Assembly (NCBI GenBank): GCA_001593935.1
Contig: LUCE01000008.1
Span: 1 to 46,203, forward strand
Direction: 5' to 3'
Length of the DNA stretch: 46,203 nt
Source: Candidatus Bathyarchaeota archaeon B26-2
Lineage (GTDB): Archaea > Thermoproteota > Bathyarchaeia > Bathyarchaeales > B26-1
Made by a program: the position numbers and the translations under genes. This document shows, piece by piece, positions 42,464-46,203 of the stretch. The notes beneath the pieces were generated by a model. The model ran no database searches. It was given only the letters and a program-made list of their open reading frames with translations, and had not been told where the DNA came from. How positions within the stretch are numbered: position 1 is the first letter of the stretch; the number at the start of each line of letters is the position of its first letter.

Positions 42464-42754
42464 TCAGCGACCCGCCTCTCCGGCTTTTGGGTACTTCTCC
42501 CTGATCTTAGCGTCAGCTATCTTGGCGATCAACGCGTTGGAGATGAGCACGTACTTGACCCCTAAGAGCTCAGCCAGCTCAGCCGGTTTCTGATCCTGCG
42601 TCACGAGTATTAGGTCTCTCTTCTTCGCGTACTCCACGATCTCCCTGTCCTTGGCTCCCTGCAGCCCCAACTCTTGGACTGTGAGCGCCTCCCATCCCAA
42701 GACCTCGAAGTACTCTTTGAGACCCGCATACATCTCGTCGAGTAGAAGCCTCAT
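42464..42754 (-). CDS. DUF5615-type PIN-like domain protein
   Basis: 96 residues. L-L-L-D-E-M at the N-terminus, A-K-D-R-E-I-V-E-Y-A-K-K-R-D in the middle, and L-I-L-V-T-Q-D-Q-K are the acidic motifs of DUF5615/Mut7-C PIN-like proteins, often toxins of type II modules or RNases. No antitoxin lies next to it on its strand; the winged-helix gene is tail-to-tail. ATG 42754. Confidence 0.82.
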   Translation of the reverse strand: MRLLLDEMYAGLKEYFEVLGWEALTVQELGLQGAKDREIVEYAKKRDLILVTQDQKPAELAELLGVKYVLISNALIAKIADAKIREKYPKAGEAGR

Positions 42755-44500: not shown

Positions 44501-44624
44501 GTCATCGATCACATCCGTCTCATCCACACTGAAAAACTTCAATTCAAAGAAGATAATCACTCGATTTCTCGTTATTTTATTATCTGTCTCGGTAGAGCGA
44601 TTAAAGAAGGTGTAAACGAATATA

Positions 44625-45164
44625 TTATGGATCCATTAAATAATTGAGGAACGTCCTGAAAGAGGGAGCTTTTTCTGAAACTTTATCTAGGTCAGCTTCC
44701 TCCATTATCCTTGCGCCTGCTTTCTCTGATTTGATATATTTCTTCCCGTATCTCTCTAGTAATCTCGTTAGTTCTTCAGCCGGATCCTCAATTTCTTCTG
44801 GATTCGTAATTTCTCCTTCGATTCTGCAATTGTATGTTCTATTCAGTGCGTTAATATCGGCGAGAAACCAAGCTTCTATTGCGTGTCTAACTATAAGAAA
44901 CTTGGTTCTCTCTCTAAAGTGAGTATCCAAAGCCCTTAGTACGTCATTGTACCTCCTTCTTAAAGTATCCTCTTGATACGTATGGAGATCCTTCAGTACG
45001 ATAAATTTATCATATCCTGTAGCATGCGCTCTAATTGTTCCTGTAAGTTTTTCTAATCTGTTTCCGTGCATAGGGTTTACTCTAACTCTAATACGCAATT
45101 TACTTGCTATTGATCTTATCGCTCCCCTCTCAGTCATTCCTTCAGATAGAACTAAGATGCTCAT
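44625..45164 (-). CDS. DUF4276-like Toprim-type protein
   Basis: 179 residues. An acidic strand-end pattern fits a Toprim fold: E8 in V-L-S-E-G-M-T-E, D59 in V-L-K-D-L-H, and E97/D103 in A-I-E-A-W-F-L-A-D. C-terminal helices with N-P-E-E-I-E-D-P and K-K-Y-I-K-S-E-K-A-G-A fit the DUF4276 family. In known systems such proteins pair with an OLD/AAA_21-type ATPase; that gene lies 26 nt upstream on the same strand. The AT-rich composition and sharply different codon use indicate transfer. A nuclease role triggered by the ATPase is inferred. Confidence 0.8.
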   Translation of the reverse strand: MSILVLSEGMTERGAIRSIASKLRIRVRVNPMHGNRLEKLTGTIRAHATGYDKFIVLKDLHTYQEDTLRRRYNDVLRALDTHFRERTKFLIVRHAIEAWFLADINALNRTYNCRIEGEITNPEEIEDPAEELTRLLERYGKKYIKSEKAGARIMEEADLDKVSEKAPSFRTFLNYLMDP

Positions 45165-45190
45165 CTATTGATTTGCACCTTGTGGTATCA

Positions 45191-46203
45191 TTAATCTTGG
45201 AGTTCACCCATGTACCAAATTTCTCCGAGAGGAATCCCTTCTTCCAATAGTCTTCTTACTTTGTCTAAGTTATCTACTGGCTTTATTGTGGTCTTTCCTT
45301 TATCCTTTCCAACTAGGAGGATTTCTTTTGGGTCTGAGACTTTACTTATTAGATAGGGGGAGTGAGTTGTTACGGCAACTTGTACGGGAGCCTTTCTGCA
45401 CAGATCAACTACTGTCTCAAAGAGGTATGGGTGGACACAGTTCTCTGGTTCCTCAAAAGCTATGATTGTGCTCTCTAGATAGAGAGCGGTTACGAAGGCT
45501 AATATCCTTAGAGTTCCATCCGAAATATTATGGTATTTTAGAGGTTCTGGGATTCCCTCCTCCTTTATTGATAAGTATACCTGTTTTCCATCTTCTGTAG
45601 GAGGAACATTTATCTCCTCGATCTCTGGGATGAGCTGCTTCATTACATCCTCGATTTGGATGAAAATCTTTCTTTTATAAGTCAATAAAGAATGTAGAGT
45701 TTGAGCTAAATTAGAGCCATCACGTAACAGGAAAAGATTAAACCCTGACGAGGAAGTAGACCTTATTCTGTCCGCCTCAAATGAATATGTACGAATGTTC
45801 CCAAGGATATCTTTCATTTTTCTAATTGAGGGATCGATATCCCTAGGCATATACAAAATAGCTGGAAAATTGTCTTCTAAATTTCTTCTGACAAACTTCC
45901 CATCTTTTTGCAGGTGTGCTATTTTTCCTCTTTCAGGACGGGTAAGTAGTAGATTTTTCCCAAGCATTACCTCCTCTCTGTTTATTAAGCCATTTGAATT
46001 GAAGGAGATTTCATAAGATGCGTTTTGACCTTTGACCTTGAGATCAACTTTAATTGTTAGTTCTTTATCTGGGTCATGGAAGAGTTGTCTGATTGATTCG
46101 ATCTTAAGGAATTCTCTACAAATCATTTGAATGTTTGTGAGAGATTCTATTCTACCTATACCGCTTAGAAGCGTTAAAGCCTTTATAATGTTGCTCTTTC
46201 CGC
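45191..46203 (-). CDS. OLD/AAA_21-type ATPase (partial at right edge)
   Basis: The frame runs to the last base of the window; just at the edge it reads G-K-S-N (46190-46201), the end of a Walker A loop, so the first 30-40 residues are missing. Further features: G-T-L-R-I-L-A-F signature-like segment, Walker B I-I-A-F-E-E-P-E-N near 45455, and the switch histidine in V-T-T-H-S-P-Y. This is the layout of SMC/ABC-like OLD-family and AAA_15/AAA_21 ATPases. The stop at 45191 lies 26 nt before the DUF4276 start, so they form an operon. A shorter frame from ATG 46126 would lack Walker A and is not the real start. Composition is AT-rich. Confidence 0.9.
   Translation of the reverse strand, partial: GKSNIIKALTLLSGIGRIESLTNIQMICREFLKIESIRQLFHDPDKELTIKVDLKVKGQNASYEISFNSNGLINREEVMLGKNLLLTRPERGKIAHLQKDGKFVRRNLEDNFPAILYMPRDIDPSIRKMKDILGNIRTYSFEADRIRSTSSSGFNLFLLRDGSNLAQTLHSLLTYKRKIFIQIEDVMKQLIPEIEEINVPPTEDGKQVYLSIKEEGIPEPLKYHNISDGTLRILAFVTALYLESTIIAFEEPENCVHPYLFETVVDLCRKAPVQVAVTTHSPYLISKVSDPKEILLVGKDKGKTTIKPVDNLDKVRRLLEEGIPLGEIWYMGELQD

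Follow-up and report, generated by a model that had tools for sequence, protein, structure and literature searches.

The contig end analysed here carries an AT-rich pair of genes, encoding an ATPase and a DUF4276 protein, and raises the question of whether this pair is a transferred defence system and, if so, to which of the known systems it is related. The source genome, a member of Bathyarchaeia (Candidatus Bathyarchaeota archaeon B26-2), comprises 1.89 Mb in 73 contigs. The window, i.e., the whole stretch of 46,203 nt that was studied, is the entire contig C21, and its right edge is a contig break within the ATPase gene.

The gene pair and the limits of the AT-rich segment

A preliminary description of this DNA had named an ATPase and a DUF4276 protein. 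Both open reading frames were confirmed (Table 1), and both products exceed the Pfam cut-offs: the ATPase matches AAA_21 (PF13304; E=1.3e-20, 75.2 bits vs a cut-off of 27), and its partner matches DUF4276 (PF14103; E=8.6e-16, 59.2 bits vs 30.2). The gap between the two genes contains a ribosome-binding-like AGGTG motif, and the arrangement is bicistronic. The GC content of the pair is 38.5% (GC3 33-35%), whereas equal-sized sliding windows over the remaining window give a mean of 52.8% (sd 2.4%, minimum 45.3%). The GC3 of neighbour genes is about 60-67% (60-65% for the three genes directly to the left), and the DUF998 gene left of the segment has 53.8% GC. This contrast, together with the patchy distribution presented below, agrees with the transfer that had been proposed and with an accessory character.

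The C21 copy of the ATPase is devoid of approximately 37 N-terminal codons, as the contig ends exactly at the lysine of the Walker A GKS. Another contig of the same genome, C72, begins with the 62-codon 5' opening of the same ATPase gene or a close allele, and encodes the N-terminus absent from C21 (MSEQVTVKSLAVKNFLSLDEVKVNFGKLTIFVGPNASGKSNIIKALTLLSSIG...). Combined, the two contigs give an ATPase of 373 aa, compared to 371 aa in the relatives; the start on C72 is intact and preceded by a GGAGGAG motif. The overlap of the contigs consists of 51 bp at 94% identity followed by a diverged 26-bp tail, and this divergence at the break suggests, at the sequence level, strain alleles. The presence of two ATPase 5' versions in one MAG may reflect allelic variation between strains in a defence gene that evolves fast, or else a duplicate of the gene.

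On C72 the GC content is 38% up to approximately position 230 and 54.5% beyond, in metabolic DNA. A tRNA-Met(CAT) gene lies about 50 bp from the ATPase opening and points towards it with its 3' end. Since the AT-rich stretch ends just before this tRNA, the foreign segment is probably a two-gene cassette of about 1.9 kb between the DUF998 and tRNA-Met genes, joined across a C21-C72 junction that we infer. The island that had been expected to continue past the right edge therefore probably does not exist: the AT-rich DNA apparently ends at the tRNA-Met. No att-like copy or direct repeat of the tRNA-Met was found at the left boundary, where the best match was at shuffle level, and thus an integrase-type insertion is not supported. 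Synteny with the congener G001 was considered as proof of the C21-C72 junction and rejected, as gene order is not conserved; in G001 the DUF998 gene and the tRNA-Met/FAH segment each have different neighbours, and the G001 gene beside the tRNA has an 82% match on contig C61 of the source genome.

Two side observations concern this neighbourhood. In G001, an ORF that looks transposase-like lies between the eIF-1A and DUF998 genes, in the cassette's own neighbourhood, and this locus seems prone to insertion. In the window itself, a solitary DUF5615/PIN-like gene with no evident antitoxin partner is located near the Ssb and eIF-1A genes. No further defence genes were recognised in the flanks (the window and C72, inspected by eye and with a few Pfam scans), and no second copy of DUF4276 was found in the source genome.

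Table 1. Positions of the gene pair, its borders and the related loci discussed in the text.
Feature	Sequence	Position	Strand	Basis
AT-rich left boundary of segment, 35.5% GC, directly after DUF998 gene	window (C21)	44501..44624	.	composition
DUF4276 protein, 179 aa, intact, probable Toprim-like nuclease effector	window (C21)	44625..45164	-	Pfam, PADLOC, alignment, model
Intergenic gap, 26 nt, ATPase stop to DUF4276 start	window (C21)	45165..45190	-	sequence
OLD/ABC-type AAA_21 ATPase, 3' 336 codons	window (C21)	45191..46203 (ORF 45191-46201)	-	Pfam, PADLOC, motifs
Overlap with C72:1-77	window (C21)	46127-46203
DUF5615/PIN-like gene	window (C21)	42464-42754	-
ATPase 5' opening	C72	1-186	-
tRNA-Met(CAT)	C72	241-319
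Transposase-like ORF	G001, L047	4163-4789		by eye
DUF4276-related protein	L087	2689-3210
Tandem ATPase-effector pairs	L087	184-1895 and 2689-4336
ATPase-DUF4276 pair	L083	856-3375
C-terminal part of DUF4276	L086	4420-4698
BREX locus with two ATPase-effector pairs	L091 (Oceanisphaera plasmid pA)	6905-14332

The ATPase and its probable Toprim-like partner

The ATPase contains a Walker A motif (of which C21 retains GKS at its edge, while C72 has GPNASGKS), the signature ISDGT, the Walker B motif IIAFEEPEN and the H-switch TTHSP; ISDGT, EEPEN and TTHSP are invariant across three aligned archaeal ATPases. PDB sequence searches gave nothing useful. When the predicted structure of a homologous ATPase (from G046, pLDDT 75) was compared with known folds, the top matches were retron and Septu PtuA ATPases, followed by SMC/Rad50 heads. 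PtuA is a defence ATPase; judged from this model, the match is one of superfamily and not of system membership.

Toprim enzymes carry a Glu after strand 1 and a DxD motif after strand 3. The predicted model of the DUF4276 protein is confident even from three sequences (pLDDT 90, pTM 0.87), and its elements (beta3-7, alpha10-23, beta27-31, alpha37-46, beta53-59, alpha65-78, beta87-92) follow the Toprim order beta-alpha-beta-alpha-beta-alpha-beta. In this model, E8 directly follows strand 1 and D59-L-H61 directly follows strand 3, while E97 is a further conserved acidic residue; E8, D59 and E97 are retained in at least 90% of the 12 aligned sequences. His (H61) thus stands in place of the second DxD aspartate. 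At this third motif position, the clade of the window protein has H and bacterial members have D, Y or E; direct reading gives D for L083 and R for L082. The KDLH sequence does not vary among the three closest homologues and occurs in the related archaeal locus L087 too.

The window DUF4276 protein gave no match to a Toprim HMM or to an AriB model (AriB up to E=1). The related protein of L087 has weak, sub-cut-off matches to DUF4276, RloB, DUF3226, OLD-like_TOPRIM and Toprim. In a fold search of a viral library, the sole match at E<=0.001 was an RloB-like protein; the PDB fold search retrieved generic alpha/beta folds only, none of its top 50 matches being a Toprim protein and none reaching E<=0.001, and AriB was not among the fold-search matches. 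On the basis of the modelled topology, the motif, the RloB-like fold match and the weak Toprim matches of the related protein, DUF4276 is likely a Toprim-like nuclease. The Toprim label given previously is therefore plausible, although no Toprim or AriB model recognises the protein. In the literature searched, no paper mentions DUF4276 by name.

Distribution of the pair and its relation to known systems

Relatives of DUF4276 were identified in 3 of 61 closely related genomes (the source genome included), in 4 of 398 genomes of the phylum when the Pfam model is used, and in 7 of 257 genomes of the class with a profile built from the three closest proteins, two weak matches being counted. The nearest congener and the sampled genomes of the same genus and family are without the pair; the two named relatives that have it are 'Candidatus Bathyarchaeota' MAGs from the same order as the source. 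In all eight archaeal loci having the ATPase, a DUF4276 or DUF4276-like gene lies directly downstream: contiguous or overlapping in the window, L024, L025, L082, L083, L084 and L087, and adjacent in L086. The partner in L084, a DUF4276-like protein, has no Pfam match. A weak match in G487 (L085), without an adjacent ATPase, was left out of the pair count. The identity of both proteins falls in parallel (55/56% to one relative and 37/38% to another), as would be expected if the unit moves together; from these alignments, we take the ATPase and DUF4276 to travel as a unit.

Some of these archaeal loci have peculiarities of their own. In L086, only the C-terminal 92 aa of DUF4276 are in frame beside a long ATPase fragment, possibly owing to a frameshift or decay. 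L087, from another archaeon of the same phylum, bears tandem ATPase-effector pairs, one partner being a DUF3226/OLD-like Toprim protein and the other DUF4276; two acylphosphatase-like coiled-coil proteins lie between and beside the pairs, and a PIN-domain gene is nearby. In L083, the pair is divergent to an adjoining ParA-type gene on a 4.1-kb contig, which suggests that this contig is a plasmid or an integrated element.

Plasmids often carry homologues of the ATPase. A tblastn search with the ATPase retrieved 150 plasmid records, 95 of them predicted to be conjugative, and we inspected 16 loci of bacterial homologues by hand. In six (Meiothermus, two Aeromonas, Pseudanabaena, Nostoc, Streptomyces), the gene after the ATPase is annotated as DUF4276; several more have an unnamed protein in this place that can be aligned or is of similar size, and two have no partner. 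Six of the 16 loci, sampled by hand and counted with no background rate for comparison, have recognised or apparent defence genes around them: type I restriction; SNF2/WYL/methyltransferase; AIPR; BREX between pglX and pglZ; BREX with two ATPase-effector pairs; and methyltransferase/helicase. A further locus lies in a prophage, and about 10 of the 16 have no obvious known defence neighbour. On an Oceanisphaera plasmid (L091), a single BREX locus houses two ATPase-effector pairs; the effector is unnamed in one and a DUF4435 (AriB-like) protein in the other. Among viral contigs, the DUF4276 profile found no match and the ATPase profile one (25%); neither tblastn of plasmids with DUF4276 nor tblastn of phages with a relative's DUF4276 gave any match.

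Among the catalogued systems, the candidate system HEC-01 (ATPase HEC-01A plus DUF4276-type HEC-01B, PADLOC-DB 2.0) is the best PADLOC match of both proteins. The ATPase, incomplete at the contig end, matches the HEC-01A models PDLC04182 (1.3e-42) and PDLC04176 (4.5e-38) across the whole available protein, and DUF4276 matches the HEC-01B model PDLC04191 (4.7e-10), the partner genes being 26 nt apart. Gene order and adjacency are common to HEC-01 and the archaeal pair. The bacterial relatives L066 and L074, with HEC-01 model matches down to 1e-182, are located in restriction or BREX loci, whereas the archaeal pair has diverged and is solitary, apparently next to a tRNA; the DUF4276 of the relative L025 has no PADLOC match at 1e-5. 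HEC denotes a Hma-embedded candidate and stems from a guilt-by-embedding approach (PMC12988326 and its reference 15); some HECs are said to be validated, in a passage that does not name HEC-01 (PMC12988326). Two models in PADLOC-DB seem to bear each other's names, as DUF4276 proteins are matched by PDLC04143 ('HEC-01A') and ATPases by PDLC04144 ('HEC-01B').

PARIS, AbiL/RloAB and MADS were each considered as the identity of the pair and rejected on at least one defining feature. The layout noted earlier as resembling PARIS and AbiL, with a split ATPase and an adjacent Toprim-like partner, is indeed present, and the PADLOC comparison bore out an affiliation with defence models, but with HEC-01 and not PARIS, AbiL or MADS as the best match. 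PARIS (AriA ATPase plus AriB Toprim tRNase; 'class 4 OLD') likewise has an OLD-type ATPase and a Toprim-like partner encoded by two neighbouring genes, but an AriB-type effector was not recognised. The ATPase does match AriA (PDLC02980, 5.4e-23), far less well than HEC-01A, and the AriA model has the length and boundaries of the generic AAA_21 domain. Class 4 OLD proteins have been reported from bacteria only (PMC12796447). AbiL/RloAB (ATPase plus RloB-like protein) shares the layout, and the best viral-library match of the DUF4276 model is RloB-like; however, DUF4276 scores 15.3 bits against the RloB Pfam cut-off of 31.5 and has no AbiLii match. The ATPase is related to MAD3 of MADS, and a relative's DUF4276 matches mad4 at 8.8e-9, but the curated NCBIfam cut-offs are missed (MAD3, 83 bits vs 420; MAD4, 13 vs 160), and no further MADS genes were recognised near the pair. 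WonAB and other OLD-ABC/nuclease dyads (PMC12137116, PMC12839542) share an OLD-ABC ATPase with a downstream nuclease; WonAB acts by abortive infection, and WonB is a PD-(D/E)xK protein, not DUF4276 (PMC12137116). In terms of sequence, the pair looks like an ordinary new archaeal member of the already catalogued HEC-01-type modules, with a modest active-site peculiarity.

Possible role of the pair and alternative explanations

We consider that the pair is probably a horizontally acquired two-gene anti-virus or anti-plasmid module that combines an OLD-type ABC ATPase with a Toprim-like effector, and that HEC-01 is the nearest catalogued system. The suggestion of a defence module made in the preliminary description is strengthened by the best PADLOC matches of both proteins and by the homologues embedded in BREX and restriction loci. 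By analogy, an ATPase multimer would hold DUF4276 inactive and serve as a sensor; a cue from the invader would alter the ATPase, DUF4276 would be freed or activated, and, as a metal-dependent nuclease, it would stop the cell or destroy the invader (abortive infection). In PARIS, AriA keeps AriB inactive until a phage protein triggers its release, and AriB is a two-metal Toprim RNase cleaving tRNA (PMC12409363). In WonAB, the OLD-ABC ATPase is required for nuclease toxicity and phage is blocked via a translation stop (PMC12137116), while TOPRIM-linked OLD-ABC dyads have been described as backup effectors in BREX loci (PMC12839542). As in the case of AriB, tRNA or other RNA is somewhat more likely than DNA to be the target of DUF4276.

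The pair could instead be a toxin-antitoxin-like or plasmid-maintenance unit, in which freed DUF4276 is toxic, the ATPase restrains it and mobile elements, not the cell, benefit. The frequency of ATPase homologues on plasmids, the ParA gene adjoining the archaeal copy in L083 and the Pfam text on AAA_21, which describes a putative AbiEii toxin/type IV TA domain, are consistent with this possibility, but several copies lie within BREX or restriction loci, and the ATPase of WonAB is needed for toxicity, which rules out simple antitoxin action there (PMC12137116). We regard it as unlikely, and in practice it overlaps with abortive infection.

Quite unlikely, in our opinion, is a housekeeping or chromatin/cell-cycle function of the OLD family, like that of Cran1 of Sulfolobales, exerted through a split ATPase and nuclease. 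Cran1, the sole characterised archaeal OLD protein, acts in cell-cycle progression and apparently not in defence (PMC12796447), and the window locus has no recognised defence neighbours. However, Cran1 (class 5 OLD) is a single fused ATPase-Toprim protein that is vertically conserved throughout its order and follows the species tree (PMC12796447), whereas here two compositionally foreign genes occur in few genomes of the class and are absent from the nearest congener. This phyletic pattern is opposite to that of Cran1, and thus argues for an accessory, defence-like role.

That the pair is a decayed, non-functional remnant of a transferred module is very unlikely: the degenerate DxH site, the contig end inside the ATPase gene and the diverging C72 allele might be read in this way, but neither frame is disrupted, E8, D59 and E97 have been retained, the conserved KDLH looks selected, bacterial members vary at the H61 position, and C72 provides an intact start behind a GGAGGAG motif.

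A more far-reaching reading is conceivable, although we hold it doubtful: the pair may be the archaeal equivalent of PARIS, a branch of the split OLD-type systems in which DUF4276 would be a nuclease of Toprim origin whose metal site is altered (DxH) and which may have a target of its own.

The locus adds a well-delimited example from Bathyarchaeia to a widespread type of split OLD-ATPase plus DUF4276 module. As the module is compact, with two genes only, and its active site is altered yet conserved, the activity of DUF4276 is readily testable, and this activity bears on whether split OLD systems, unlike the sole archaeal OLD protein studied, defend archaea.
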